26,129 bases of DNA from a virus, in the IMG/VR virus record IMGVR_UViG_3300021139_000123, positions 1 to 26,129 of that record; one strand, written 5' to 3'. The notes under the pieces were generated by a model. The model saw nothing but the letters and a program-made list of their open reading frames with translations. It ran no database searches and was not told the origin of the DNA. Position numbers and translations under genes: made by a program. Shown here piece by piece: positions 1-22,807 of the stretch. Each line of letters starts with the position of its first letter. Positions within the stretch are counted from its first letter, which is position 1.

Positions 1-135
1 ACTGTTTAGGATAGCTTGAGAGCCCGCGAGCTGGGCTCTCAACAACGTACCAAACTCTTCGTCGCTTGGATCAAGTTCTATGTCGAGAATGGTTTCGATC
101 TTGCGTAGCGCTTTGCCTGTAAGGCGTGTGAGCAT
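1..135 (-). CDS. Hypothetical phage protein, N-terminal 45 residues only
   Basis: The reading frame begins MLTRLTGKALRKI and stays open for 45 codons until the window edge, so the C-terminus is missing. Its ATG overlaps the stop codon of the ATP-grasp gene in a TAATG arrangement, which suggests translational coupling and supports this start. The visible part is predicted helical and charged: a basic first helix, then an acidic stretch (LDIELDPSDEEF), then an LRAQLAGSQAIL helix. This is the sort of N-terminus seen in small DNA-binding packaging or structural proteins. A small terminase subunit is one possibility, because no small terminase is recognisable elsewhere in the window, but that is inference and no diagnostic motif is visible. 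Confidence 0.7.
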   Translation of the reverse strand, partial: MLTRLTGKALRKIETILDIELDPSDEEFGTLLRAQLAGSQAILNS

Positions 136-1457
136 TACGCTGTTGTCGAGTACAACATCCCCTTCGCGAACCCCATCGCTTGTATTTTGGGTAATTGCTT
201 TGACAGGCGATCCCCAATGTCCGTCCGCCACATAGGGGAGTTGGGCACTATCAAGTTGTCCAAGCGACGGTATGCCCTGCGCTTTGCTTCCCTCACCGTC
301 TCCCCCGTCCCCGACATCACCAGCACATAATCCCCCGCCGTCACTGGGATCGGAGAGGTTATGATCGTCTCGCCCACTTCCATTGGCGCCATGCCCATCG
401 CCATCTCGCATGGGTGCAGGTTCTCCCAAATCCCCGGCTTGATCCCGTAGATTGGCGTCCCCACCACTTCCTTCTTCGTCAAGTGCGAGTATGGATAATC
501 CGGCACGGAGAGCACGACGCCGAGGGCTATCGTGTCCAGTGTCGTGTTTCGGGCGTCGCGGCCCTCCGCTAGGTCTCTGAGCCATTCTACACTATCTCCT
601 TCGTGTAGCGCCTGCTGAATGTTGAATGTCGGCCAGCCGGGGCGCATCGTAAACTCTAACGGCCAAGGGGTGCCCTCGTCGTCAATGATGCAGTTCACGT
701 CTATATACCCGACATACCCTACCTTTGCCAACTCATCTTCGAGCGGTGCCAGCACGGTCTCTGCAAGCTTGCTGTTGCGAACATACCGAATGACCGTACC
801 TTGTTCACCTGTGGCAACGCCCTTGTCGTCATTCATCAGCTTCTTGAACTCAAAGTTCTCGCACCAGCCTACATTGAACCCGTGCGGTCCGAACCAGCCG
901 CCCACGGCCATCTCTACGCCACCAATGAAGTCTTGCAGGATAAAGTCTCCTTTGAGCTTCTGGGCTTTTTTCCAGCGTTCCAACATGTAGACCATATCGG
1001 CGGGAGACTTGGCGACATAGGACAACGCCTTGTCCGCATCACCTGAAGGCTTCGAGACAAAGCGCCGCTGTTCCTTTTTGACGTAGCGGATAGCGTCATC
1101 ATAGTTGGAAAAGTTTTTGACTGGCGGCACGGCTATGCCGCACTTCTTGAACATCTTCATGCCTGTGTCACGCTCAAGTTCCCACTTGGCGCTCTCTACT
1201 GAAGCGCTGATAACCAATGCGCCTTCCTTCTTGGCCGCATCGAGCGAGTGCAGGTACATGGTGTTGTCTGAATTGAAAATCACATCCGCCCAGCGCAACC
1301 AAGGTTTAAAGTCGTCGATCAGCTCGACAAAGCCCTTACCAATGTACTTGGTTTTTTCCGTCTGACGGATGAAGTGCTTGACCTTATGCCCGTCCCGCTG
1401 TGCACGGATCGCAATGTCAAGAGCTGCGCCCTGAGGGTCGATAATAAGAAATTTCAT
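135..1457 (-). CDS. PurD-like ATP-grasp ligase
   Basis: This 440-aa protein looks like phosphoribosylamine-glycine ligase (PurD, usually about 430 aa) in its middle and C-terminal parts. The ATP-grasp region has K136 in SKPSGD, a FILQDFIGG strand near 172-180, and the metal/ATP-binding EFTMRPGWP segment near 268-276, equivalent to PurD's EFxxRxGxP. The C-terminal domain keeps PurD hallmarks: a VVLS..YP segment near 314-321 and SGTGETVREAKRRAY near 382-396. The N-terminus does not: PurD's phosphate-binding GNGGREHAL is replaced by IDPQGAALDIA, so the acceptor substrate may not be phosphoribosylamine. I chose the MKFLIIDP start because it overlaps the stop of the 1519-aa protein gene as ATGA; the frame is open 33 codons further upstream, but that stretch is implausible. 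Its place at the end of a virion operon is odd for a purine enzyme. The fold is fairly sure and the reaction unknown. Confidence 0.85.
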   Translation of the reverse strand: MKFLIIDPQGAALDIAIRAQRDGHKVKHFIRQTEKTKYIGKGFVELIDDFKPWLRWADVIFNSDNTMYLHSLDAAKKEGALVISASVESAKWELERDTGMKMFKKCGIAVPPVKNFSNYDDAIRYVKKEQRRFVSKPSGDADKALSYVAKSPADMVYMLERWKKAQKLKGDFILQDFIGGVEMAVGGWFGPHGFNVGWCENFEFKKLMNDDKGVATGEQGTVIRYVRNSKLAETVLAPLEDELAKVGYVGYIDVNCIIDDEGTPWPLEFTMRPGWPTFNIQQALHEGDSVEWLRDLAEGRDARNTTLDTIALGVVLSVPDYPYSHLTKKEVVGTPIYGIKPGIWENLHPCEMAMGMAPMEVGETIITSPIPVTAGDYVLVMSGTGETVREAKRRAYRRLDNLIVPNSPMWRTDIGDRLSKQLPKIQAMGFAKGMLYSTTA

Positions 1458-4400
1458 TGTGCGTTCGCCCTTTTGTATTGCTGCTCGATGATCCGCTTCA
1501 TCCGGTAGTTGACTGGCCGTCCCGCCGCAACTTCGTTGGCCGTGTACTGGTGCCAAGCCGCTTCAGCGTCTTTGCTCAGTCTAACCGCTTTCATCATGCT
1601 TTTGTAGCCTTCGGGGTCAATAAATTCCATAGAGGCGGGCTTTGCACCAAAGAACCGTGCAACTGGCCCAATGTCGGATGAAGGCGGCGCGTTAAATATG
1701 TTGGAGAATGAAATAGGTATTTCGGATTGCACAACAAACTCAAGGTATTTTTTAAGAGCTTGAAACCGCGTATCAGTAGAAGCCGTAATAGGGTCGCCAA
1801 ACCGAGCCGAGTCGGTGATGAGCGCTTTTGCAATCTGAAGCCCAACGCTAACTTTGTTTTCCGCCTCCTGCACAGGGTCATTATACCAACCAAATACATC
1901 CTTCATATAGCTAGGCCACTGCATACGGTTTGGTTTTCCTGTGCGGATGTCTATACCTCCTGTACGGGCGGCAAGTAAATCTTGAACATCCTGTGGCCCT
2001 TGACCAGTGTAAAGGTACTGTGTGATAGCGTTCATAGTTGCGTAGACCAAAGGCAACGCTACGGCATAGCCCATTTTATCAGTCCAAATTGGCTTTGCGT
2101 TTTCTTTGCCAAGCAATGCGCGACCTGCGCGGTACGGTGCTGTAGCTACGTCAAGAGCCCCGCCACCAAGAGTTTTGATCGTTCCGAGCTCGTAAGAGAA
2201 CGAAGTCAATAAAACCTGCGCGACTTGCTTTAAATTTTGCGACCAAAAAATATTTTGCTGGTTCATCTCACCAAAGCGTTCGTCCACTACATTTGCAACC
2301 TCACGAGCTTTGGCAACCTGCTCCGCATGGGTTGCATCGGGGTTGTCCTGAAGCCATTTCCCTAAGCTGTCCGTAAATGCGCCGTTTTTAATGGCGGGGA
2401 TATAATAGTCAAACAAAGGCGAAGAAACAGTTTCCATCCCTCGCCCAAGGTTTTTAGCGATGAGTTTCATCGTGCCCACCAGCGGGCGCAATTTTGCATC
2501 GTGCAGATCGGACAAAAGTTCTGCTTTCAGCGAGCCGCGTTTCCATGCCTGAACATAATTACCCTTGCCAGAAAAACGGTATTCGTCAGCGATGTTGCCC
2601 TTACCTTTGAACCGATAGTTGACCTGCACCCCAAGGTCAATAATCTTGCGTAGCTCAGGAGAAGCTTCTTTCAAATCAAGATATGCCTCCATTGCTCGCC
2701 TACCTTTACGGTACGAAGTAAACGGCTTTACAGGAGCTTCCACAAGTGACCGCGCCGCACCAGAAAAATTCCCGCGTGCGGCTTGATTGAACGCATCGGC
2801 AACGCCGCTGACAACGCCTTCTTGCCCCATCATGGCAAAATGGAATCCAGAAATAGCAAGTTTTAAAGCGGTTGCGGCGTTTGATACCCGCTGTGCAACG
2901 CGCAAAACATCCCCCACAGGTCCTTGCATGGTGCGGGAAATATGGTTGTTGTAAACACGGGCCCAGCCATCGGGGGCATAAGCATACGCTAATTTTCCGC
3001 CTTGTACCTTTGTCCTATGGCGTCCGCCAACTTCTGACCAGCCTTCAGGTGCATTACCCGCCGGAAAATAGCGCACTGTTTTTTGATCCATTGCCGTGCC
3101 AATGACTTCTTCGGCCACAATATACTTCGAAGCGTTTTCGACATAGCGCATCGTGATCTCAATCGGATCAAGCGTTACGGGCTCAAGCCCGCCTTCACGG
3201 ATGCCCTGCTCATAGCTGTCGTAAATGCGGCCTTTGGTAAAGCTTTTTGAACCTTCCTTGCCGCCACCAAAAAACTGTTCTGCTTTCTTCGGGTCTTTCC
3301 ACATCTGCCGCAGATAGTCATCCACAAAGTTCATTTGCTGTGTAGCGGGCAGTTGTTCAAGACGCGCACGGTAGAGCGCGTAAGTGTCTTTGACCGCCTG
3401 AAGAACGGGTTTTATTTCGGCGGGAATTTCCTTACCCTTCGCCAACATCTTGCCGGGCTGTTGTATCCACTGAATAAGGTCAAGCTTCTGTGCATCGCCC
3501 ATGGCGTTGACCATGCGCTGCATAGGCTCAAACACTTTTCTAACTTGCTCTGCACGTTGATTTTCGCGGCCCATTTCACGGCGCAAAGCCATTTCGGCAA
3601 CGCGACCCCCTTCACGAAGCTCAGGCGCAAAGATCGCTTTGAATGTATCTGCGGCGGCTTTTACCCCTTCTACACCAATATTGCGTAAGGGTTCAGCGGC
3701 AGCGCGGGCTTCGCGCTCACCTTTGATTTTGCTGTAAACATCAAAAAGAGGTTCTTCTTTTTTAGGCTCTTCTCCCGTGAAAGCTTCTTTAAGCGCTTCA
3801 TCTTCAGGGGTCATACCTTTGGTTTCGCTGATAACGTCGAATAAAGAAGGTGTGCTTTCGGTTCCGCGAAGCTCAGGGGCAATCTCGTCGAAAAATTTAC
3901 CTTGCTTGCGTAAGAAATCAGCAACTTCTTTGTTGGCGCTTTTGCGCCCTGTAAATTTTTCGTACAAAGCTTTCCACAGATTAGCGATACCTTTAAAGAA
4001 TTTATCGGCAACACTCACGGCTGCACGGTCTGTAGTTAAAAATTTAGAAACTTGATTGGCAAACCATTCATCAAATCGCCTCGTATACTTAGCCATACTT
4101 GAGTAATCAGGGGTGCGACCTTTTAATTCTTCCTTGGCGCGGGAAATTACCCCTTCGCCGACACCTGCGGCATAGGCTTCTTTGATTTCCTGCTTTTTAC
4201 TTTTTGGACGTTTTTCTGCCATTTCGCGTGTCCACGCGTCTATAATAGCTTTTTTTGTTGCTTCAGGTGCTCTGTCTAAAAGTTCTTTTTCTATGATATG
4301 CCCAAACTCGTGGGTTAATATCGTCGCCATTTCTGCAATGCCTAAACCTTCTTCAAACTCAATAATATGAGTTAAATATTTTCCCGTGTATTTATCTCTA

Positions 4401-6013
4401 AACATACTGGCTTGACCGCCCCGCCCCGAAAGTTTTTCCCGTTTAACGATATTAACCAACACGGAGCTTTTAATTCCAAAACGCTGGCGAAGCCCGTCGG
4501 CATAGGCGTGAAGGTATTGAGCTGCAAGAGGCGCTTTAGTTGGTGCGGTGGACGCACTTGGCTCAGTCGGCGTTTCGGGCAGAACCTTCATTCGCTCGTC
4601 AACCACTTTGCCCATAGGTTCAACCGTGATGGTGCTCTCAGGGTTCTTGTTGGCTTCAAACGCCTTTTGCACTTCGGGGGCGTATTCGGATGTGCTTGCG
4701 GCGGCGCGAAGCTCCGTGCCATCTGGCAGGCGCTCGACAACGTTCAGCGGCTGGTGCCCGCGCCCAACGCTGGCCTCCACATCGGCTTTATTGTAAGGGC
4801 CAAGGCCGAGGTGCTTTCCGAAACGGTCGGCTTCAATATCCTCTTTGAGCTGCTGCACACTTAAAGATTTTGGATCGTAATGGAACGTACCCTTGTTCGG
4901 ATCGGTATAAACCGCCGCACCTTTCGGCGGTGTAGGGATCGTTTCTTTGGGCATGGTGCTTGGATAGAACACGGCGGGTCGCCGTCCGGCCTCAAACTCC
5001 CTGAGCTGCGCTGCAATGGTGGCGGGGCTTTCAGGAATAGGGCGGTCTTTGACAGACACAGGTGCACGAGCTTCGACAGGTGCCGGAGGGATAGGCTCGT
5101 TTTTAATGGACGCGGGCGGCTCTTCCCCGCCGGGCTTACCTTCTTGAGGGTAACCCTTAAGGTGTTCGGAATGCAGCTCGCCCGTGAAGTCTTCCGGCAC
5201 TTGCTTGGCTTTGCGCGCAATTTCTGCGGCGGTGTTGCGGTCTACGAACTCTCCTGTGGACGTAAAGAAACCTTCGCGGCCACCTTCAGTGGATGGGTAC
5301 ATCTCTCGTACAGCCGCATGACTTTCGCCTGTGAAGTGCTGGCCTGTGATTGGGTTTTCAATTGCCGCACTCTTGATCGTAAGCGGCTGCCCTTCAGGTT
5401 GTTCTACAGGCTGTTTAAAATCTTCCCACGGCTTTGTGCCAGTTGGAGCAACAGAAGTTTTAGGAACTTCCGTGCGCGCAAGCTCTTTGGGCTTTGGCAC
5501 TTTTATTCCGGGCTCACCAGCGCGGCCCATTTCAAAAGCAAAATACGGATCAACAACTTCGCGTTGCGCTTTTTGCACGTTCTGTTCGTATTCAGCAGGT
5601 TTGCCCTGATAACCTGTTATTGCCCCACCGATAGCGCCAGCCGCCGCGCCGCCTACGGCACCGGGAATAGCATTAACTACATTTCCCACTTGATAAGGGA
5701 TTGCCATTGCCGCCTGCCCAAAGCGCGACGTGACGCCAGAACGGGCAATCTCCGTTTGCTGTTCTTCAGACAACGCTAAAGGGTCGCGTGGAATTGCGTT
5801 ATAAGCTTCAGTGCCAGCTCCGGCAAATGCGCCTTTGATTGCAGGAATAATACCCCCCGCCTCAGCCTGTGGAGCAACGGGCGAAACGGGGGGCGAGGCT
5901 GGAGCTTGCGCCCCAGCTTTGGGTAAAGGCTTGAAATCATCCCACGGCCCTGCTTTGGCTTGTGGCTTAGCAAAGTCATTCCACGGGCCATTTGCCGGAA
6001 GATTATCAGCCAT
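1454..6013 (-). CDS. Giant probable ejection (internal virion) protein with HEXXH metallopeptidase motif
   Basis: A 1519-aa protein preceded by a clear AGGA ribosome site. The N-terminus carries PWxDF motifs at about 9-14, 22-27 and 194-199, separated by Pro/Ala-rich linker and a Gly/Ala-rich hydrophobic stretch near 108-134. A zincin-type motif HEFGH lies at 568-572, with a likely third ligand E649 in FDEWFANQ, so an active metallopeptidase is plausible. Residues about 740-1000 are charged and probably helical. The C-terminal third has hydrophobic segments (for example LLTSFSYELGTIKTL and AVALPLVYATMNAITQYLY) and resembles C-terminal domains of phage 'large polyvalent' proteins. Position after the tail hub, transglycosylase and 451-aa gene matches ejected proteins that enter the host with DNA, such as P22 gp16 or T7 gp16. 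The role is inferred from size and context; which target the peptidase cuts is unknown. Confidence 0.85.
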   Translation of the reverse strand: MADNLPANGPWNDFAKPQAKAGPWDDFKPLPKAGAQAPASPPVSPVAPQAEAGGIIPAIKGAFAGAGTEAYNAIPRDPLALSEEQQTEIARSGVTSRFGQAAMAIPYQVGNVVNAIPGAVGGAAAGAIGGAITGYQGKPAEYEQNVQKAQREVVDPYFAFEMGRAGEPGIKVPKPKELARTEVPKTSVAPTGTKPWEDFKQPVEQPEGQPLTIKSAAIENPITGQHFTGESHAAVREMYPSTEGGREGFFTSTGEFVDRNTAAEIARKAKQVPEDFTGELHSEHLKGYPQEGKPGGEEPPASIKNEPIPPAPVEARAPVSVKDRPIPESPATIAAQLREFEAGRRPAVFYPSTMPKETIPTPPKGAAVYTDPNKGTFHYDPKSLSVQQLKEDIEADRFGKHLGLGPYNKADVEASVGRGHQPLNVVERLPDGTELRAAASTSEYAPEVQKAFEANKNPESTITVEPMGKVVDERMKVLPETPTEPSASTAPTKAPLAAQYLHAYADGLRQRFGIKSSVLVNIVKREKLSGRGGQASMFRDKYTGKYLTHIIEFEEGLGIAEMATILTHEFGHIIEKELLDRAPEATKKAIIDAWTREMAEKRPKSKKQEIKEAYAAGVGEGVISRAKEELKGRTPDYSSMAKYTRRFDEWFANQVSKFLTTDRAAVSVADKFFKGIANLWKALYEKFTGRKSANKEVADFLRKQGKFFDEIAPELRGTESTPSLFDVISETKGMTPEDEALKEAFTGEEPKKEEPLFDVYSKIKGEREARAAAEPLRNIGVEGVKAAADTFKAIFAPELREGGRVAEMALRREMGRENQRAEQVRKVFEPMQRMVNAMGDAQKLDLIQWIQQPGKMLAKGKEIPAEIKPVLQAVKDTYALYRARLEQLPATQQMNFVDDYLRQMWKDPKKAEQFFGGGKEGSKSFTKGRIYDSYEQGIREGGLEPVTLDPIEITMRYVENASKYIVAEEVIGTAMDQKTVRYFPAGNAPEGWSEVGGRHRTKVQGGKLAYAYAPDGWARVYNNHISRTMQGPVGDVLRVAQRVSNAATALKLAISGFHFAMMGQEGVVSGVADAFNQAARGNFSGAARSLVEAPVKPFTSYRKGRRAMEAYLDLKEASPELRKIIDLGVQVNYRFKGKGNIADEYRFSGKGNYVQAWKRGSLKAELLSDLHDAKLRPLVGTMKLIAKNLGRGMETVSSPLFDYYIPAIKNGAFTDSLGKWLQDNPDATHAEQVAKAREVANVVDERFGEMNQQNIFWSQNLKQVAQVLLTSFSYELGTIKTLGGGALDVATAPYRAGRALLGKENAKPIWTDKMGYAVALPLVYATMNAITQYLYTGQGPQDVQDLLAARTGGIDIRTGKPNRMQWPSYMKDVFGWYNDPVQEAENKVSVGLQIAKALITDSARFGDPITASTDTRFQALKKYLEFVVQSEIPISFSNIFNAPPSSDIGPVARFFGAKPASMEFIDPEGYKSMMKAVRLSKDAEAAWHQYTANEVAAGRPVNYRMKRIIEQQYKRANAQ

Positions 6014-7382: not shown

Positions 7383-8300
7383 TTAACCGTTGGAAGCCAT
7401 ATCGGAACTTCCGGTCTTCATAAATGTGGGGGTCTGCGAAGGTGCAGGGGCGGGTTTAGGGGCAAGGTTGCCCACGGACGAAGGTGTAGGCGAATAATTC
7501 ATTTTCTTCTCCGCCCACGAAAGCATATCGCTCCCTGTTTTCCCCGCAAGGAAAGGGTTTGCTTTTATTGCATTCGCGCTAAGATGATCCGACACAAGGT
7601 CGTTAGGGTTTTTCAAAACCGACGTTGCCCCGCCCGCACCAAAGAAATGGGCAAGATAAGTGGTTCCGGGTGTAGGCTCGATCCCACGCTTGGCAAGATA
7701 ATTCTGATTATCTTTTGTAAACTTTATGGCCGCTTGCGTGTTGGCTACAGGGTCGTACTTGTCCCCCTTGCCGTAAGCTTTCCAAGTTTTATCAGTAAAC
7801 TGAAACAACCCGCCCGCTGAAGATGCTTTGGCTTTTGCGTCAGGTTTAAAACTACTTTCCTGCTTTGCAACGGCGAGCATGTACTTCGGGTCAACGCCCG
7901 CTTCCTGCGCGTGCTTCGTAATAAGATTTTGTATGTCCCCACCGCCGTAGTTGGTTTGAGAAGGCGGAGGAGAAGCTGCGCTCATAGGCGGCTCTGGCAT
8001 ATAATGGTTTAGCGCGGGCGGCATAGTCATAGCGGTTTGAGGCGCCAAATAGTTGCCCATAGGCATTGGAGGCGGTGCGCTTGGAGGCGGCGCAAAACTA
8101 GGCTGTGACTGAGGAGCTGGGGGCCCCATAGGGTTCATTGCCGCGCTCTGCATTGGTGCGCCGGGCAAAGGTGGAGCTTTGCCTATTCCTGTTGCAGGGT
8201 CAAGGCGTGCTTGCATAGCCCGAAGAATTGCCTGCCGACGGTCGTTACCCTGTTGGATCAGGTTCGGGTTTGGAGCAAAAGAACTAGGGTCAAAAGCCAT
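7383..8300 (-). CDS. Virion-associated lytic transglycosylase (SLT domain)
   Basis: A 305-aa protein. Residues 1-115 are a Pro/Met/Ala-rich disordered region. From about 120 to 220 there is a soluble lytic transglycosylase domain: catalytic E148 in AVAKQESSF, followed by SSAGGLFQFTDKTW (about 160-173), the usual S-x-x-G-x-x-Q signature, and then YDPVANTQAAIKF and TTYLAHFFGAGGA. The enzyme should cleave peptidoglycan glycan strands, forming 1,6-anhydro ends. Lacking a signal peptide and sitting among ejection-type genes, it most likely travels in the virion and opens a local hole in the wall during DNA entry, rather than acting in lysis, for which a GH108 enzyme is present elsewhere. A GAGGTG ribosome site lies just upstream of the start. 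Confidence 0.92.
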   Translation of the reverse strand: MAFDPSSFAPNPNLIQQGNDRRQAILRAMQARLDPATGIGKAPPLPGAPMQSAAMNPMGPPAPQSQPSFAPPPSAPPPMPMGNYLAPQTAMTMPPALNHYMPEPPMSAASPPPSQTNYGGGDIQNLITKHAQEAGVDPKYMLAVAKQESSFKPDAKAKASSAGGLFQFTDKTWKAYGKGDKYDPVANTQAAIKFTKDNQNYLAKRGIEPTPGTTYLAHFFGAGGATSVLKNPNDLVSDHLSANAIKANPFLAGKTGSDMLSWAEKKMNYSPTPSSVGNLAPKPAPAPSQTPTFMKTGSSDMASNG

Positions 8301-8952: not shown

Positions 8953-9480
8953 TTACTCTCCTATTATTTTAACGTAGCGGATTTCATGCGGTGTGTATTT
9001 AAGCCGCTTCATAATGCTGCTGACACTGTACCCGTTATCGTTCTTAAAATCAATCTTAGGCATCAAGTCGATACGCGAAACGCCGAACTCACGAAGACCT
9101 TCTTCGCATAGGCTCAAGAGCTTGTAACCAACCCAGCCTTCACGCTCTAAAGGATGTACCCAGAACGCATCGCTGATTGCCGTTTTGCGGCGTGTGCAAT
9201 GTAATTCAGGAGTTACAAAAATAGATAGGTAGCCTATCAGCGCACCGTCACGGCGGGCGCTAAAAAATTTTATAACGCCTGCGCGTTCCATTGCAAAGTA
9301 CTGGTCGAAGTTAGGTTCAAAGTCTCCCCCGTCCCCGGTCTCTTCCCAGTTCTTTTTAAGAAGAGGAAGCGCCTCGTGAATTGCATCCGCGAAGCGCTCC
9401 CACTGATAGGTAACTTTAGCAGCGTGGGCCAATGGTCGCCGAAGTTTCTGCGGTGCCTGTACGCACAGCGTTGCTGTCAA
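8953..9480 (-). CDS. GNAT-family N-acetyltransferase
   Basis: A 175-aa frame (if the 9480 start is used) with the features of a GNAT fold: a helical N-terminal half (ALPLLKKNWEET), a beta-rich middle (FFSARRDGALIGYLSIFVTPELH), a DAFWVHPLEREGWVGYKLLSLCEEGL segment matching the acetyl-CoA pyrophosphate-binding loop and following helix, and the strand SRIDLMPKI. Phage proteins of this family are known in podoviral late operons, but their targets are generally unclear. The start is uncertain. The longest start is TTG at 9480, overlapping the preceding 61-aa gene by 65 bases, and a second in-frame TTG at 9432 gives a 159-aa protein with only a 17-base overlap. Neither has a strong ribosome site. 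Substrate unknown: a virion protein, a host protein or an antibiotic-like small molecule are all possible. Confidence 0.85.
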   Translation of the reverse strand: MTATLCVQAPQKLRRPLAHAAKVTYQWERFADAIHEALPLLKKNWEETGDGGDFEPNFDQYFAMERAGVIKFFSARRDGALIGYLSIFVTPELHCTRRKTAISDAFWVHPLEREGWVGYKLLSLCEEGLREFGVSRIDLMPKIDFKNDNGYSVSSIMKRLKYTPHEIRYVKIIGE

Positions 9481-9632: not shown

Positions 9633-10832
9633 TTAAAACGCAAGCACGTTGTCCGTCCATCCATACGCCCGTATATAACAAGTGCCATCCCCTGCTGTGT
9701 AATATACGTTCGCGCTTTCAAGTGTAAATGTTGCGGGGATGGCGCTATACGAACTTGTAACACCCCCTTGTCCGCCTACGCTCACATACGCGGGATTTGA
9801 AGCAGAAGTAAGTACTCCGTAAGTAGAATTTGGGTTTAACGCGCACCCGTTAATATTGGATTGCGACATAACAAAAGAAATTTGCGCCGCCGTTGGGGGA
9901 ATAAAAGGTAATGTAGCTATAGTTGTCGTAGCCGTCCCATTGCCTATTAAAGGCAAAGTGCTTGTGTTTGTTGAAGCGGTTACTACATAATTTGCCTTTG
10001 CCCCTTTTTGCAAAGTGCGTAAGAATACGCTGCTGGCGCTTGTCCGCACCGCGCCCCAACGGCACGCATAAACATACCCTGAAGGAAACGAGGGCGCAGT
10101 GGCCGACAAACTGAGAAGCCCCGCCGTATTAGCGCCATTGTCGATCAACCAAACATAATACCAAGTGCTTGCCGCCAATGACCCTGTATCAAGCCCATTC
10201 GCTCCGGTGGTAGCGGCGTTAATCACTACGGACACATTTGAGCGAGTAAACGCTAACCCGCTGCCAGCGTAGTTGGCAAGCTGAACAAAATTGGAAGCCA
10301 CGTCCACTTGAGTATTTGGGGTGGTTGCATCGTTGTTTATCTGCAACCCTGAAGCCATGCAAAACCCAGACGGGTTTGCCGCCAAAGGCGACCAAGCAGG
10401 AGATGCCCCACCATACCCTTCAAAAAGATTGAGAGATGTATTGTACCGGATCATACCCGCGTTGGGGGACGCGTTGCGCTGCGCGGTTGTGCCTGACGGA
10501 AGGTCAAGCTCTCCTGTACCCGTCATGAACAAGTCGTTGCCCACGGTTGTAATTCCCAACACGTTAAACGCCCCGCCTACAGCTAAAGACCCCGAGAGCG
10601 TGCCCGAAGTCGCAGAGAAGCCAATAAGCCCAGTCAGGTAAGTAATGTCTGAGTTGGAACCGTTATGCGCCGCTCCGGCATTCACTGCTGAAGAAATAGC
10701 GTTGAAGTTGGCGTTTACCTGAGTAGCATCGGCAATCGTGCCGTTTTGAAAAGTGTAAGGGTAGGACGCAAATATCTGCGCCTGCGCGGGCGTAACCAGA
10801 ACCGCAAAAAGGAGTGCAAGCCATTTCTTCAT
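9633..10832 (-). CDS. Tail-fibre-like protein with signal peptide (399 aa)
   Basis: The first 19 residues form a textbook Sec signal peptide: two Lys, a hydrophobic core (WLALLFAVLV), and an AQA-type cleavage site before QIFASYPY. The mature part opens with TFQNGTIADATQVNANFNAI, a motif frequent at the start of phage fibre-type proteins, then Gly/Ser/Thr/Asn-rich beta sequence (a LDLPSGTTAQRNASPNAGMIRYNT segment, about 105-130, of the kind seen in phage fibres and appendages) and a C-terminal beta-rich domain with a STWYYVWLIDNG segment near 210-221 and three Cys spread through the last half. Its ATG overlaps the stop of the tail-hub gene as ATGA, so it is translationally coupled to the hub. 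Likely a receptor-binding or adsorption appendage. Why a virion protein should be exported is not explained. Function moderately sure, export prediction strong. Confidence 0.82.
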   Translation of the reverse strand: MKKWLALLFAVLVTPAQAQIFASYPYTFQNGTIADATQVNANFNAISSAVNAGAAHNGSNSDITYLTGLIGFSATSGTLSGSLAVGGAFNVLGITTVGNDLFMTGTGELDLPSGTTAQRNASPNAGMIRYNTSLNLFEGYGGASPAWSPLAANPSGFCMASGLQINNDATTPNTQVDVASNFVQLANYAGSGLAFTRSNVSVVINAATTGANGLDTGSLAASTWYYVWLIDNGANTAGLLSLSATAPSFPSGYVYACRWGAVRTSASSVFLRTLQKGAKANYVVTASTNTSTLPLIGNGTATTTIATLPFIPPTAAQISFVMSQSNINGCALNPNSTYGVLTSASNPAYVSVGGQGGVTSSYSAIPATFTLESANVYYTAGDGTCYIRAYGWTDNVLAF

Positions 10833-13009
10833 AGTGTCGCCTGTGTGTAATCGAGGATTTGACGCCTCAAGAAAATGTCACCGATCTGGAACCCCTGAGC
10901 ACAAGGGCCAGACACATATACAGCAATTCGTCTATAAACAACAGGGGCTGTAAACGCCGCACGTCGAGGGCGTAAAGAGTTGGAAGCCCCGCGCCATACG
11001 GTAGGAGACCCCCATGTCATCGCGCCCCACTTGGAAGGTGCGCCTGTAACTTGATAGGATACAGAATTATAAACTGAGCCATCCTGATCTATGAGCGCCA
11101 TGTTGATCTGCGCTTGCCCTGTAACCAGCGCCATGTTTACCGTAAGATCAGCAACGTTCATCATTGAAAGAGCGCCGGGGTCGGCCATCATTGCTGTCTG
11201 AAAAACAAACTGCATTTGAGCGCCGTTCTCAATCGAACTTGTTGTCGGGTTGGGCACAACCGCGCTTGCAAAAAGTTGCGCCGGAACTGCGCGAGGTACA
11301 ATAATGAACTCGTTATTGTAAGCGGTTATGGCTTGCGCCGGAAACGTATGTGGGCCAGACCAAAGATTGCGCGAAATGTCGTACCAGTATTCTTGATACG
11401 GCGTACCGACCACATCGGACGGTTGCACGTTTACGCGCATGACGTTGGCGTTACAAGAAGAAGCCACACGGCTTGGGTATAAGTTATTCAGGAACGGGTA
11501 CACAACCCCTTCACCCGCAACCCCAATCGGGTCAGAAATGCGGGCAAAGAAATCTACCACACGGTATCCGTCAGGGGCAAGGAAAGCCACGCCGCGAGGC
11601 GTATCCACGATTGACCAAGGAGACAACGTGCCCGTAGCCGCGTTGAGCGTGTTTACAGATAGTGTTGAACCTATATAGTCCCCAGTGATCTGGTAAATGT
11701 TGTTGGTGCTTTTGAACACAAGCAAGGACTGGATCACGCCGCCGTTTTGGTTGTTTAAAGGCAAGCCATGCGCCGCCGTTAATTTTAAGCTGTCGCCAAA
11801 TGTCAGTGCTTGGTTTGCGTTGCTGCAATTCAAAAAGAGCACATCGGTAAACACAACGGATGGTTGACCGACAGTTGGGTTGACCCCAAAATATGCCCGC
11901 TGTGCAAACTGAGACACCCATGAAGGCGGTGAAGTAAACGTAATAAGCCCGTAATAGGTCAGCGCTATTGCCGCACTAAACCCTGAACCCGTACCACCGA
12001 TGTTTGCTGCAGCGGTCGTTACCACGTCTGTCGTGTTGTACCCAGACCCGCTGTTAAGAATGACGATAGATGAGACCGCTCCTAATGCTACGGTGACATA
12101 TCCTGTCATCCCCGTGCCCGCAGAGATCGTGGCAACCTTGATAGAGAAGCCCGCGCCTGTACCACCCAGATTGGTGTTTGACGCCGAAAGCGTATCGTTT
12201 ACGGCGTAACCTACGCCGCCGCGAGTTATGGTCACAACCGTAACCGCGCCGCCCGCAACCTGCACCGTAGCTTGCGCTCCAGACCCTGAACCGCCCGTAA
12301 GCGGCACATTGTAATAGAACCCCGCTATATATCCAGAACCGCCGACAAGTGTGCCCAGCGTCAACGCTGAGGCGCAAGTGAACGTAACTAGAGGGTAAGT
12401 TCCGTTGGTGTAGCCGGAGCCGCCTGTGATCGTCCCCAGCGATTGTACAGCTCCCGGAGCTGCAAGATTGCCCGCGTTCCAAAAGATGTTGTTAGGATTG
12501 GATACATTGAACCAACCAATGTAGTTTGACCCCGTAAAGCCCGGATGGGTTACAATCACGTTTACGCCTACGGTGTCGATTGTTGGCGGCGCCCAATCCC
12601 CTGAACTTGCCTGAGTGGCAGGTAAGTTAGAAGAAGTGATGTTGTTCACAAGAACAAACGTGTTTGTTAAAAGATTGAATATGAACGGCTCATCGTACCC
12701 TGAATAAGTGATGCTGTTACGCATACCATAAAGCAAGTTACCGATAGCTTTGATGACGACAATAGGTCCTGCACCGCCTGAAAGCGAATTGAAGTCTGTG
12801 TTAAAATCAGCGTTAAAATCCGCAGGGAGAATAGGTCCCGCAGTTAAAGGCGTGGCCGCAGGACGGCAAGCCCACAAGTTCTTTGTGGTCGGATCAGGAA
12901 TAAGGTTTTGAAGGATCGCCATGCCGCCGGGCGCGGTGTTGGTCTCATCAAGACTGTCACACAGGCCAGAAGGGGAGAAGCGAACAACGTCCGAGTTTAT
13001 CGTAGCCAT
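10829..13009 (-). CDS. Tail hub / DNA-stabilisation-type protein with GSGY-repeat insertion (726 aa)
   Basis: A 726-aa protein immediately after the adaptor gene. Residues 1-180 and 355-726 look like the hub or packaged-DNA-stabilisation proteins of short-tailed phages (P22 gp10 position): N-terminal PGGMAILQNLIPD, a central QSLLVFKSTNNIYQITGDY segment, and a C-terminal RRIAVYVSGPCAQGFQIGDIFLRRQ. Between about 190 and 350 sits a Gly/Thr/Val-rich stretch with GSGY or GVGY at about 197-200, 224-227, 265-268 and 321-324, and GGTGxGFS after some of them. This is a beta-repeat module known from many phage tail proteins and probably exposed at the surface. A small FNADFNTDFN duplication occurs near residue 65. 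Start chosen at the ATG preceded by GGTG. The identity as tail hub is from order and general look, not from a diagnostic motif. Confidence 0.82.
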   Translation of the reverse strand: MATINSDVVRFSPSGLCDSLDETNTAPGGMAILQNLIPDPTTKNLWACRPAATPLTAGPILPADFNADFNTDFNSLSGGAGPIVVIKAIGNLLYGMRNSITYSGYDEPFIFNLLTNTFVLVNNITSSNLPATQASSGDWAPPTIDTVGVNVIVTHPGFTGSNYIGWFNVSNPNNIFWNAGNLAAPGAVQSLGTITGGSGYTNGTYPLVTFTCASALTLGTLVGGSGYIAGFYYNVPLTGGSGSGAQATVQVAGGAVTVVTITRGGVGYAVNDTLSASNTNLGGTGAGFSIKVATISAGTGMTGYVTVALGAVSSIVILNSGSGYNTTDVVTTAAANIGGTGSGFSAAIALTYYGLITFTSPPSWVSQFAQRAYFGVNPTVGQPSVVFTDVLFLNCSNANQALTFGDSLKLTAAHGLPLNNQNGGVIQSLLVFKSTNNIYQITGDYIGSTLSVNTLNAATGTLSPWSIVDTPRGVAFLAPDGYRVVDFFARISDPIGVAGEGVVYPFLNNLYPSRVASSCNANVMRVNVQPSDVVGTPYQEYWYDISRNLWSGPHTFPAQAITAYNNEFIIVPRAVPAQLFASAVVPNPTTSSIENGAQMQFVFQTAMMADPGALSMMNVADLTVNMALVTGQAQINMALIDQDGSVYNSVSYQVTGAPSKWGAMTWGSPTVWRGASNSLRPRRAAFTAPVVYRRIAVYVSGPCAQGFQIGDIFLRRQILDYTQATL

Positions 13010-13012
13010 TCA

Positions 13013-13723
13013 TCACCACCCTAAAGTCTTGGTGTTAGGCTGGCGATCAAAGCGGGAACCAAAGCGACGGCGATCAAGGTGCACGGTCTTAGCACGCCCG
13101 TCATCGTCTTTCTGAAGCTCAAGGTAGCGATGCAGGATGCCTTGAGCACCGTCTGGACCATTGCCCAAAAACGCTTGCTGGCGGCTGTCTCCCGCAATCT
13201 TCATAAGCTCGCCCGCAAGCCGCGTAATCAAATAGGTCTGGTTAGGGAACCAAGGGATAGACGTAGATGTCTCTGGCGTGGTGATGTCCGAGGGCTGCGA
13301 ATAATAACGGATAGTTGTGTTGTAGGCGCCGCCCGACGGAGGCCACACATACATAAGCATGTTGCCGACCCCGCCTGATACATCGGTGGCAAACTGTGCT
13401 GGATAATTAGAGATGCCCGCTTGCTGAACAAGGGCGTCGTATTCAGAGAGGTCGATACTTACCATAACGTAAGGAACGCCATCGACAAGGTAGAACACCT
13501 CATCCATTGCCATACGCAAATAATCTGAGGGCAGGTTGTAGGGGCCAGAACCTGTGGTCGTATTTAAGTTGACGGTGGCGCTTTTACGCGCCACCTCAAG
13601 GTCGTAGGTCTCTGCAAGATCGGCGAGGATCATGTTGAGCATTTGCCCCGCCTGCGATGTATAGCCGGGAACCTTAGCTATCTGTGTCGCCAGAGCGACG
13701 ATTTGTTGTGCTTGAAGTGCCAT
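13013..13723 (-). CDS. Head-to-tail adaptor protein (gp4/gatekeeper-like)
   Basis: A 236-aa protein starting MALQAQQIVALATQIA with AGAGG upstream. The layout is typical of short-tail adaptors that bind under the portal: a helical N-terminus with QMLNMILADLAETYDLE (about 28-44), beta strands (ATVNLNTTTGSGPYNLPSDYLRM, about 49-71), a middle section on a DGVPYVMVSIDLSEYDAL theme, and a helical C-terminus (TYLITRLAGELMKIAGDSRQQAFL) ending in an Arg-rich tail. Position between coat-associated genes and the hub fits the P22 gp4 or T7 gp11 role of attaching the tail after packaging. It overlaps the end of the coiled-coil gene by 50 bases in another frame. Confidence 0.82.
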   Translation of the reverse strand: MALQAQQIVALATQIAKVPGYTSQAGQMLNMILADLAETYDLEVARKSATVNLNTTTGSGPYNLPSDYLRMAMDEVFYLVDGVPYVMVSIDLSEYDALVQQAGISNYPAQFATDVSGGVGNMLMYVWPPSGGAYNTTIRYYSQPSDITTPETSTSIPWFPNQTYLITRLAGELMKIAGDSRQQAFLGNGPDGAQGILHRYLELQKDDDGRAKTVHLDRRRFGSRFDRQPNTKTLGW

Positions 13724-14972: not shown

Positions 14973-16334
14973 TTAGCCGAAGGTGGAGTTGAAGGCTGAA
15001 GCACTTTCGATACGCATCGCAAACTGATTGTTCTTGATGAGTGTACCGTAGAACACTTTCCAACCGACCACACGGAGCTGGTTCAATGGATCGGACTTAT
15101 CCGCACCAGCAAGCCAAGTGATCTTGATGTCGTCGAGAACAACCTGACCGTATGCACCGCGGCCGAACACATAGGTTGGGTAAACGGTAACACCTGCTGC
15201 CGGAGCGGCTGGCGGGGTCTGGGCAGTACCAGTACCTGTCAAGATAACAGTCTGACCGCCGGACATCTGGACAGCCTGACCAGTCAACGGACCGGAGGTT
15301 GGGCCAGCAACGGAGGTGGCAAGGTTGGCAGGTGAGGTGGTTGTACCGATGTAGGCATTGAAGGTAAAGCCCGCCAGAGTAGGCAGAACAACCGAGATTG
15401 AGCCGGTAGCACCCGTGACGGATACTGCGCCAGATACAGCGTAGATACGGCTTTCATATTGGTTCTGGGTATCAGAAGCAGTGATGATAACGTAGTAGCT
15501 GTTGGTTGCAAGCGAGCCTGCTGTACCTGCGGTGTAAGCTGTACCGACAGCACCGAGGTTGGCAACACCAGTCCACGAAGGAACCATGTTGGTTGAGCAG
15601 AAACGGATACCGTGCCACTGACCAACTTCGTAGTTGTACAGCTTGTTCACGTCGGAGTAAGACGAGGCCAGAACAAAGGTTGAGTTCTGGGTAAGATCGC
15701 CTTCAACGAACGGATGCACGATAGCCACATAGTGAGGCATACCGCGTGGGTTATTCGAGGCGCGTGCGCCACCAGCATCAGCTTCAAGCTTGGTGTTGGT
15801 CATCTCGTCGCCCATGTAGCGCGGTGCGCCAAGGGTAACAAGCTGCGAGTACGAGCGGTTGATTTCGTAGGTGTTGAGAACGTCACCAGCAACCAGTGAG
15901 CCACGTGCACCGCGAGAGTTTACATAGTTGACCTGTGTGAAACCAGCGAGGGTGTTGAACGTGTTGCGCTCAAGAGTTTCAGCCGTCTGAAGCGCTACGA
16001 GCTTCTTGGCTTCGTTCATGATCGGATGCTTGATGGTCAATTCAGCAACGTCGGTGACGGTGATGCGATCACCCCACTGTTGTAGTGTGACAGTGACCTG
16101 ACCAATGGTCATGGTCTCGCCAACTGGAGGGACGCCTTCCGAAAGAGGCTGGAAGGGCAGTGCAACGCGGTTATAACGGGTTGCGGTAAAGGTTGTACCG
16201 CGACCCTGTGGCAAGCGCTCTGGATCACCAAATTGGTAAGCCACAAGCTGACGCCGTGCCAAAGGAAGAGTTTCCTTGGCAATAAAGGCTTCAATATCGG
16301 CTGTAAACTGGCCGGAGCTATTCGTAGTCGCCAT
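14973..16334 (-). CDS. Major capsid protein, N4-gp56/P22-coat-like, with inserted domain
   Basis: A 453-aa protein preceded by AAAGGA. Its first 255 residues show the pattern of N4-gp56-type coat proteins: N-terminal LPLARRQLVAYQFGDPERLP (about 23-42), GTTFTATRYNRVALPFQPLSEGVPP (about 46-70), the strand pair TIGQVTVTLQQWGDRITVTD (about 76-95), helix IMNEAKKLVALQTAETLERN (about 105-124), and the HYVAIVHPFVEGDL segment (about 201-214). The usual closing segment YPTYVFGRGAYGQVVLDDI...VGWKVFYGTLIKNNQFAMRIES is at about 385-445. Between about 257 and 382 lies extra Gly/Thr/Ser/Val-rich sequence resembling an Ig-like or fibronectin-like domain. The scaffold gene directly upstream supports the assignment. 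The protein forms the icosahedral shell; the insertion is probably surface-exposed. Confidence 0.93.
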   Translation of the reverse strand: MATTNSSGQFTADIEAFIAKETLPLARRQLVAYQFGDPERLPQGRGTTFTATRYNRVALPFQPLSEGVPPVGETMTIGQVTVTLQQWGDRITVTDVAELTIKHPIMNEAKKLVALQTAETLERNTFNTLAGFTQVNYVNSRGARGSLVAGDVLNTYEINRSYSQLVTLGAPRYMGDEMTNTKLEADAGGARASNNPRGMPHYVAIVHPFVEGDLTQNSTFVLASSYSDVNKLYNYEVGQWHGIRFCSTNMVPSWTGVANLGAVGTAYTAGTAGSLATNSYYVIITASDTQNQYESRIYAVSGAVSVTGATGSISVVLPTLAGFTFNAYIGTTTSPANLATSVAGPTSGPLTGQAVQMSGGQTVILTGTGTAQTPPAAPAAGVTVYPTYVFGRGAYGQVVLDDIKITWLAGADKSDPLNQLRVVGWKVFYGTLIKNNQFAMRIESASAFNSTFG

Positions 16335-20665: not shown

Positions 20666-22807
20666 TTACATTCTCCGAGGCATAACGCTAGGGTCGCGCA
20701 TTTGATCTTGTGCTATCATACCGGGCGGTTGCTGTCCACCACGGGGAACCATAGGTTGAGCACCGGGGCGCGGCTGACCCGGTGAACCCGGACCTGCTCC
20801 TCCCGGCATACCCGGCTGTCCTTGCGGCGCCAAGGCTTGCTGCTGCGCCTGCTGCTGTTGCATGAGCGCCATCTGATGTTCGAGCATGTGTGCACGGAAC
20901 GTGCCGTGCGGATCGCCCTGTTCCTGCATCCCTTGTATATGGGCTTGCATGTGCTGCTGATGGTTATCCAAAGGATGAACAGGGACGTTGTGTCCTTGTC
21001 CGAGAAGATCATTCTCTTTCTTTGGATCAATCGACAACGATGACCGCAGGTCTTCAAAGACTAAAGGCGCAAGGCGTGGACCGAAAGTATTCTCCATCAT
21101 CTGAGCAATGACAGGTGCAAGGTTGAGCTTGTAGCCTTGGTACAGTTGTGGCGGAATGCCCTTGACGATATTCATCATGGCTATCTGTTGCTGCACTTGC
21201 TGCATTGTACGTGCGGCCTCAACGCCGAACCAACGAAACTGATACCGAGAGTTCATCTGGATCGGATCAATGTCTTGCATTGCCGCTCGCATACCCAGTT
21301 CACCAAAGGCGCGTATCTGAAGCGTCTCATCGCGGAACTGATGATCAAGCTCGATGAAGCGCTCAATGATCGGCGTCAACACGGCGCTTTCAACAACCGT
21401 AACCACATCGGCGGTGGTCAGCATATCTACTTGCTGTTCGTTGGCAACTTCCGCTTGGCTCTGTTTCTTGCGCGCCCCTTGCGTAATCTGTGAAGGGTTG
21501 ACGCTAAGCGTTTGAAAAACCTGTTGTTGTATAGAAGCGACAATTTCAAAGCCGGATTTCCAAAGCTGCGGGAACTCCGCAAACTTGGTATCATTCGGGC
21601 TGGTCTCCCAGATTGCGGCCATGCTCAACACCATGCTGCCGACCTTGGGGTTCTTCTCAGGGTCAGTCATCACGATAGGCATAAGCCCGTAAGCCATGCT
21701 GTCTGCGGCTTCGTTCACTGTATCGTTGGCAAGGTACTGTAGATCGGCAACGGCTTGGATACGGCTGATACCCTTAACCGATCCCTGTATCTTTTCAAGC
21801 GGTTCTGAAATTAAGGGAAGCTTGTCCGACCAATAAGGGTTACGCATACAAGACAACACTTTGTCCGCGCCGCCAAAGTAGGTGCGGCACAGTCGCCACC
21901 CGTCTGGGGTCTTGACGTTTGACCATGTCTCATACACCAAAGCAAACTTGCCTTGGCCTGTACCCTTGATGCCTGCTGCATCGGCCATTGCCTTTGCTTT
22001 GTCCGGCGTATGCGAGCGATTGTCTTTCGACATTTCTTCAATCAGGGCTTCGCCTTCTTTGCTGTCAATCTGCCCTTCGGAGATCATAGCCTTGATCTTG
22101 GCTTTGCCCCACCGCCGGATGATTGTAGCAGAGCCCCCAGACGCAATAGCATCCTCGGCGCGGCTTGCCGTTGCAGGAAGTATGAGCACGTCGCTGTCGG
22201 CCAATATCTCAACTGTAGGGTGCGCGGATTTCAAGGTTTCTTCCTCGATGTCCTCAACCTCTTCGTCGGGGGCAACTATGCCGGGCTCAACTTGTGCAGG
22301 GCGCTTTACGCGGCGCACCACGTGGCGTTCGCGCTCCGACCAATCCACATACACGTTGAACTGGCCTTCAATGTCAGCGTTGCGCAGAAGGGCAGGGATA
22401 AGCTCACGAAGGCGAGCCTTGCGAACGTAGTGCTCTGCAAGCGCCATCACCGCATGAGGTGTTGTGCCATCCGAAGATGTCACCTCAACGTAGCGGCCAG
22501 ACTGCGGGAAGATTTGGTTTGCGAAACGTGTCTTACGGGCATTGACCGCGTTGTACACTATAGGCAGGAAGATACGGCTGTTGCCGGAATAAAATTGGTT
22601 CTCGCCTAGCTTACAGTTGTAGATGTCCCAATAGTCCTGCATGTCGTTTGAGCGCGGAAGCTGGTCTTCAAAACCTTTCTCCACGTCGCGGTACAAGTCA
22701 ATTAGTTTCTCGCGGGTCTTTTTAGACTTGGCAAGGTTCTTAGAACGATCCTTCAATCCTGAAGTATCATCTTCCTCAACGTTGAGAAGTTCTTCTTCCT
22801 CAGCCAT
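20666..22807 (-). CDS. Portal protein
   Basis: A 713-aa protein, the length expected for P22/podovirus-type portals. After an acidic N-terminal stretch (MAEEEELLNVEEDD) it has LYRDVEKGFEDQLPRSNDMQDYWDIYN (about 39-65), IFLPIVYNAVNARKTRFANQIFP (about 84-106), the segment ALAEHYVRKARLRELIPALLRNADIEGQFNVYVDWSER (about 122-159), and central FGGADKVLSC...LPLISEPLEKIQGSVKGISRIQAVADLQYLANDTVNEAADSMAYGLMP, the conserved wing/stem region of phage portals. The C-terminal 100 residues are Gln, Pro, Gly and Met-rich. It forms the dodecameric ring at one capsid vertex through which DNA is packaged and ejected. Placement two genes after the terminase supports this. Confidence 0.9.
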   Translation of the reverse strand: MAEEEELLNVEEDDTSGLKDRSKNLAKSKKTREKLIDLYRDVEKGFEDQLPRSNDMQDYWDIYNCKLGENQFYSGNSRIFLPIVYNAVNARKTRFANQIFPQSGRYVEVTSSDGTTPHAVMALAEHYVRKARLRELIPALLRNADIEGQFNVYVDWSERERHVVRRVKRPAQVEPGIVAPDEEVEDIEEETLKSAHPTVEILADSDVLILPATASRAEDAIASGGSATIIRRWGKAKIKAMISEGQIDSKEGEALIEEMSKDNRSHTPDKAKAMADAAGIKGTGQGKFALVYETWSNVKTPDGWRLCRTYFGGADKVLSCMRNPYWSDKLPLISEPLEKIQGSVKGISRIQAVADLQYLANDTVNEAADSMAYGLMPIVMTDPEKNPKVGSMVLSMAAIWETSPNDTKFAEFPQLWKSGFEIVASIQQQVFQTLSVNPSQITQGARKKQSQAEVANEQQVDMLTTADVVTVVESAVLTPIIERFIELDHQFRDETLQIRAFGELGMRAAMQDIDPIQMNSRYQFRWFGVEAARTMQQVQQQIAMMNIVKGIPPQLYQGYKLNLAPVIAQMMENTFGPRLAPLVFEDLRSSLSIDPKKENDLLGQGHNVPVHPLDNHQQHMQAHIQGMQEQGDPHGTFRAHMLEHQMALMQQQQAQQQALAPQGQPGMPGGAGPGSPGQPRPGAQPMVPRGGQQPPGMIAQDQMRDPSVMPRRM

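Follow-up and report, generated by a model that had tools for sequence, protein, structure and literature searches.

A PurD-like protein encoded at the late end of a phage structural operon is probably an ATP-grasp amide ligase and not a GAR synthetase

Why does a phage carry a gene resembling purD, which encodes glycinamide ribonucleotide (GAR) synthetase, as the last gene of its structural operon? The question is raised by a 26-kb virus fragment (26,129 nucleotides, analysed at its full length and called the window below) in which the recognisable structural genes are all on the minus strand (Table 1). The gene order is TerL, portal, capsid, tail-tube-like genes, a GNAT acyltransferase gene, a 212-aa gene, a lytic transglycosylase gene, a 451-aa gene, a 1519-aa ejection-type gene and finally the PurD-like gene, called the ligase gene below; among the neighbours from TerL to the 1519-aa gene, only the transglycosylase and GNAT names are backed by profile search. 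The start codon of the ligase gene and the TGA that ends the 1519-aa gene share the sequence ATGA, and a purine-rich AAAAGGG lies 5′ of the overlap. Both the overlap and the place at the late end of the structural operon had been noticed in an earlier sequence-only reading, and both were recovered here. The 1519-aa protein also contains an HEFGH motif of zinc-metalloprotease type (residues 568-572; 4298-4312, minus strand), which is kept in its closest relatives.

Table 1. Features of the window and the grounds on which they were assigned
Feature	Position	Strand	Basis or remark
PurD-like ATP-grasp ligase gene, 440 aa + stop	135-1457	-	ORF, profile matches, predicted fold
DPQGAALDI, residues 7-15, where PurD has the phosphoribosylamine-binding GxGGREHAL loop	1413-1439	-	alignment
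ATP-grasp core, residues 93-272: E93 R96 K136 Q175 E182 E203 K205 E218 D253 N255 E268 T270 R272	642-1181	-	alignment
E203-F204-K205	843-851	-	E203 in place of the glycine-binding Asp (A. aeolicus D212); K205 is the kept ATP/Mg Lys; PMC8880213
D253-V-N255 in place of PurD Y-A-G	693-701	-	alignment
EFTMRPGWPT, residues 268-277, in place of PurD EFNxR(L/F)GDPE	627-656	-	E268 and R272 kept; Asn, Asp and Glu lost; PMC3261824
ATGA stop/start overlap of the ligase gene with the upstream late gene	1454-1457	-	
1519-aa ejection-type protein gene, directly upstream of the ligase gene	1454-6013	-	context
GNAT acyltransferase gene, structural operon of the ligase	8953-9480	-	profile search
TerL	23070-25031	-	read from size, sequence and order
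Portal	20666-22807	-	read from size, sequence and order
Capsid	14973-16334	-	read from size, sequence and order
Tail-tube-like genes	10829-13723	-	read from size, sequence and order
Lytic transglycosylase	7383-8300	-	profile search

The window protein matched the purD profile TIGR00877 with 72 bits (E 4e-20), about a quarter of the curated NCBIfam cut-off of 288 bits, and the profiles GARS_A and GARS_C with 28 and 27 bits. GAR synthetases in the PDB were matched by sequence with E-values down to 1e-14, and identity to E. coli PurD is about 23% over residues 72-415. An AlphaFold2 model, built from an alignment of 77 sequences (pLDDT 94.5, pTM 0.92), was compared with solved structures by Foldseek and VIA-align 2, and GAR synthetases ranked top with Z scores of 32-36; 2YW2 aligned over 394 residues (Z 36.1, rmsd 3.1) and E. 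coli PurD, 1GSO, over 385 residues (Z 33.0, rmsd 3.6). PurK, PurT, PylC and biotin carboxylase also matched the model (Z 22-25). The likeness to PurD that had been seen in the middle and C-terminal domains was thus confirmed, and the match of the predicted fold runs over the full length of the protein. The model retains the N-terminal fold, and what has changed is its loop. The predicted fold, together with the invariant residues E93, K136, E182, K205 and E268, places the protein in the ATP-grasp superfamily. The window protein matched no PHROGs family, and BFVD structures gave generic ATP-grasp matches only (TM, normalised by query length, was at most 0.47 in the top rows); therefore, there is no annotated viral family to lend it a function.

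The active site was examined in an alignment of 16 true PurDs (that of E. coli and 15 from genomes also carrying the relative), 53 cellular relatives and 30 phage proteins, using the residues reported to contact ATP, metal and glycine in PurD (PMC8880213; for glycine Asp212, Arg287 and Glu292, A. aeolicus numbering). Four of the ATP and metal residues, E100, K143, E192 and K214, are kept in the window protein as E93, K136, E182 and K205, and two are changed, K103 to R96 (Arg throughout) and E185 to Q175 (Gln). Two of the three glycine residues are replaced, D212 by E203 and E292 by T277, and R287 is kept as R272. The GxGGREH loop, which binds phosphoribosylamine (PRA), reads DPQGAAL in the window protein and is an unrelated sequence in every aligned phage and cellular relative. 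Elsewhere the window protein has ATGEQG for NTGGMG, RPGWPT for R[LF]GDPE, EFTMRPGWPT for EFNxRxGDPE and DVN for YAG. Among positions invariant in PurD, G7, G9, R11, E12, H13, E187, D214, NTGGMG, N288, D293 and E295 are replaced in the relatives, while E102, K145, E194, K216, E286 and R290 are retained. D214 has become Glu and the Mg-ligand Asn, N288, has become Thr, and E295 is Thr, Leu, His or Ser in the phages. The sequence-only reading had described the change as a replacement of GNGGREHAL at the N-terminus; DPQGAALDI is indeed found there, but the change is not limited to that end, as the glycine-site Asp and Glu, NTGGMG and the Mg-ligand Asn are replaced as well.

What remains is highly uniform. 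The ATP/Mg core E93, K136, E182, K205 and E268 and the carboxylate-binding R272 are invariant in phages and cells, and a new signature, R96, Q175, E203, E218, D253, N255 and T270, is 98-100% fixed in the cellular rows and in those of phage groups A and B, the exception being N255, in 8% of group B rows. In group C phages six of the seven signature positions are present in 8/8, with Ala at position 255 in two. D253 lies in a GYxDVN strand that is followed by LEFT, like the metal-binding Asp...Glu arrangement of other ATP-grasp ligases such as D-Ala-D-Ala ligase, and by this analogy it is likely a metal-ligand Asp.

Homologues of the window protein were found in more than 130 viral contigs at 41-100% identity, including several near-identical copies from different samples; many of the source habitats are freshwater and soil. 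Group A, obtained by a related-locus search from the window gene, comprises 80 viral loci (56-100% identity). Group B adds 49 loci around MW202796, the one annotated phage, whose protein is 46% identical to that of the window, and group C consists of eight loci with 41-49% identity to a third query. All 20 phage records counted (20/20) have exactly one copy each, and none (0/20) exceeds the purD cut-off. The median dN/dS was 0.09 over 836 pairs, some of them cellular pairs, indicating strong purifying selection. This value and the number of viral contigs with homologues rule out a chance ORF. Low-identity hits in the annotated phage collection (MT838306, MT839088, OR845008 and Salmonella records) were rejected as phage members: they are 22-24% identical and look like ordinary purD genes on bacterial-type contigs, and MT838306, MT839088 and OR845008, phages by GenBank name, may be bacterial contigs. 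Phage-like contigs with the ligase gene were also seen in MAGs binned as Methylococcaceae, Elusimicrobia, Sphingomonas and Saccharibacteria (L087, L088, L089 and L090), which may reflect either hosts or mis-binning.

The position of the gene is conserved. Groups A and B keep the order of tail genes, GNAT, a small gene, a transglycosylase or other gene, a large ejection-type gene and the ligase gene; on the 3′ side, convergent genes follow directly in group A, and further late genes and then convergent genes in group B. The start of the ligase gene overlaps or abuts the upstream gene within 8 nt in 89 of 120 loci, mostly by 4 nt, and the 4-nt overlap is present in 8/8 group C relatives. The GNAT gene was found in 40 of the 52 loci having the full upstream flank. 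An iterated profile detected a relationship to the 1519-aa protein in 49 of 119 upstream proteins, and the ligase gene stays in place in the rest. It is therefore tied to the late operon and not to one ejection protein. Coupling to a virion protein gene, as proposed from the window alone, accordingly stands in the sense that in many phages translation of the ligase gene is coupled to that of the last structural gene and the gene keeps its end-of-operon place beside ejection-type genes, but a dedicated tie to the 1519-aa protein does not, the upstream partner being exchangeable. A YGGPQ(Q) motif that recurs at the C-terminus of group A upstream proteins (for example at L057, L058 and L044) was considered as a modification site and set aside, because its codons supply Shine-Dalgarno-like bases just before the ATGA; they may be the Shine-Dalgarno sequence of the ligase gene, so that translation coupling explains the motif simply. 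A few other phages also encode GNATs with weak similarity to this one, in one case adjoining a tail-tube gene.

The remaining gene content was examined in three near-complete relatives of 42-44 kb. Among their 50 mostly non-structural genes (short ORFs left out), no other purine-biosynthesis gene was seen; Pfam identified a primase-polymerase, DNA polymerase A, a SNF2 helicase, nucleases, one Dam methylase, a KTSC protein and lysis genes. Neither an amidoligase nor a GATase was found in the scanned genes of these three relatives, the GNAT alone being common to the operon.

A scan of genome contigs for relatives of the gene revealed about 60 non-phage loci, mostly 30-37% identical over the full length, and in addition four phage-like MAG contigs. 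The cellular relatives come from Micrarchaeota, Woeseiaceae, Acidobacteriota, CPR bacteria and others, haloarchaea included, and the window protein has the signature of this cellular family, R, Q, E, E, D, N and T at positions 96, 175, 203, 218, 253, 255 and 270. A true PurD over the cut-off is also present in 20 of 25 genomes with a cellular relative. Those without one include a Nanoarchaeota and a Parcubacteria MAG; MAGs are incomplete, and purine synthesis is often absent in both groups. The spread is sporadic, with the gene in 23/148 genomes of the Nanoarchaeota sample (two via GNAT or a partial gene), 29/146 of the Micrarchaeota sample and 7/147 of the Woeseiaceae order, and in only 1/274 genomes of the class of the Woeseiaceae genome. 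A search of viral contigs with an Altiarchaeales query found no cellular-type members. In trees, true PurDs, cellular relatives and phage proteins fall into three separate groups, and the phages form one clade beside the cellular family; the root is not fixed and the cellular group is weakly supported.

Haloarchaea have previously been reported to possess 'extra' PurD-like proteins, Hlac_1553 and rrnAC0307, which were judged not to be GAR synthetases on the grounds of a divergent N-terminal loop and loss of the Asp of RLGDPE (PMC3261824). By description these cellular proteins resemble the window protein in both respects. They probably belong to the same family as our cellular relatives, judging from the published description and from a Halarchaeum plasmid protein that is 55% identical to an Altiarchaeales member of that family.

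The neighbours of the cellular genes were also surveyed. One Nanoarchaeota protein (L139, 9144-10946) combines a PurD-like part and a GNAT in one chain, there is a second, partial fusion (L254), and at other cellular loci a GNAT or Acetyltransf_6 gene directly adjoins the PurD-like gene. No similarity was detectable between the phage GNAT and that of the Nanoarchaeota fusion, so the fusion is no proof of the same partnership. Among 64 operon neighbours the only repeated families were SET, DapF-like, Acetyltransf_6 and Acetyltransf_1, four each; GNATs made up 8/64 neighbours versus 2/64 distant control genes of the same contigs, a marginal difference (one-sided Fisher p 0.048). A DapF-like epimerase gene lies 3′ of the PurD-like gene in four CPR loci. 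In Woeseiaceae (L122, 2446-9278; L113, L125 and L133) the PurD-like gene is accompanied by a starch-synthase-type glycosyltransferase, two ATP-grasps and a PGM1-type ligase, and lies 3′ of the glycosyltransferase, an ATP-grasp and the PGM1-type ligase; a GlgC/GlmU-type nucleotidyltransferase is also beside it. The cluster has the look of a pathway for amide formation, not yet described, in the vicinity of glycogen-type genes. Together the neighbours show a weak trend towards amino-acid and acyl chemistry, partly shared by descent. In contigs from CPR bacteria and archaea (L147, L140 and L245) the PurD-like gene has SET-domain genes next to it, as it does on the Sphingomonas plasmid L229, there on the opposite strand. 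A Planctomycetota fusion of 1341 aa (L095) was discarded, as its N-terminal 900 aa are an arginine/proline-rich frame without any Pfam domain.

Compared with known systems, the window protein shares with PurD (TIGR00877, 2YW2, 1GSO) the N-terminal, ATP-grasp and C-terminal fold, the ATP/Mg residues Glu, Lys, Glu, Lys and Glu, the Arg and the C-terminal RxDIG, and differs in lacking GxGGREH, NTGGMG and GDPE. The amidoligase or peptide-bond modules of phages phiM6, PA11 and phiRIO-1 (PMC6256558) have in common with it phage amide-bond chemistry with proposed peptide or cell-wall targets, but they are multi-gene modules of other enzyme families, whereas the window phage has a single PurD-derived ligase at the operon end. 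The R2K-type peptide ligases found in jumbo phages, for which a transfer of aminoacyl groups to proteins of the host has been proposed (PMC7824862), are likewise ATP-grasp enzymes and are likened to it by description; they belong to a different ATP-grasp family and phage group. No link between a PurD-like gene and internal virion proteins was found in the literature searched.

A rival reading, a genuine GAR synthetase acting as an auxiliary metabolic gene that raises the purine supply for phage DNA, would fit the full-length PurD fold and the best solved matches, all of them GAR synthetases, and virome studies count purD as a viral metabolic gene (PMC11097641, PMC12043954). It is nevertheless very improbable, given that the PRA-loop, glycine-site and Mg-site residues are replaced in every member, that the profile score is far below the curated cut-off, that no other purine-biosynthesis gene occurs among the non-structural genes of the three near-complete relatives and that the cellular relatives coexist with true PurD. 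We conclude that the product of the window gene is almost certainly not a GAR synthetase, in agreement with the sequence-only reading. A domesticated PurD fold that has lost catalysis and now serves as a structural or ejection component of the virion would explain the fixed place after ejection-type proteins in three phage lineages; a protein with only a structural role would not need the ATP/Mg-site residues, yet they are invariant in phages and cells alike, which makes this very improbable.

If the protein is an enzyme of the proposed class, the target may still differ. Modification of phage DNA bases would suit its descent from a nucleotide enzyme, but is hardly credible: in the three relatives Pfam revealed no thymidylate or cytidylate hydroxymethylase, base kinase, deazaguanine or PLP-dependent base-modification genes and only one Dam methylase, and a late structural position would be unusual for a base-modification gene. 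An amide on a small molecule or in the envelope of the infected cell is a serious contender, with well under an even chance; the late alteration would then affect a metabolite of the host, a peptide of its peptidoglycan or the head group of a lipid. PurD relatives act on small molecules, the cellular members adjoin DapF-like epimerases and, in Woeseiaceae, ATP-grasps, a glycosyltransferase and a GlgC/GlmU-type nucleotidyltransferase, and modification of host peptidoglycan has been suggested for amidoligase modules in other phages (PMC6256558). Against this, no small-molecule pathway genes accompany the ligase gene in phages, where the operon holds structural genes and the GNAT only. A peptide or protein is the target we slightly favour, in view of where the gene lies, late and coupled, and of the GNAT in its operon, while still giving it somewhat less than an even chance.

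Our preferred reading is that the window gene encodes an ATP-grasp carboxylate-amine ligase of a PurD-derived family which does not make glycinamide ribonucleotide; this is likely for the enzyme class, a grading that does not extend to the target. The suggestion that an amino-acid-type ligase acts on something other than the PurD substrate thus remains the best reading, the ATP/Mg core and Arg272 being kept and the PRA loop lost. From its invariant catalytic residues and the selection on it, the protein is predicted to be, very probably, an active amide ligase. The kept Arg and the acidic residue at the amino-group site suggest an amino-acid-like acyl donor, and glycine is a possible one, as the place at which glycine is held in PurD still has a carboxylate, that of Glu203, and the Arg. 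In the proposed reaction, MgATP would phosphorylate the carboxylate of the amino-acid-like substrate, held by Arg272 with its amino group at Glu203, and an amine other than phosphoribosylamine would attack the resulting acyl phosphate to give an amide. Made late, from the end of the structural operon, the ligase would most likely conjugate an amino acid to the amine of a peptide or protein, possibly with the GNAT of the operon. Only tentatively do we suggest a phage aminoacylation system not described before, in which a recruited PurD paralogue, co-translated with ejection-type proteins and together with the GNAT, would attach an amino acid, late in infection, to proteins or peptides of the virion or the host; as a complete scheme this is rather unlikely.

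These results describe a PurD-shaped family of phages, bacteria and archaea which is annotated as purine biosynthesis and has lost residues for both PurD substrates. Virome counts of purD as an auxiliary metabolic gene may include members of this ligase family, for which the purD label is probably wrong. With a gene so constantly late and coupled to ejection-type genes, a ligation reaction specific to phages can be tested directly, and the substrates can also be sought with the proteins of the cellular family.
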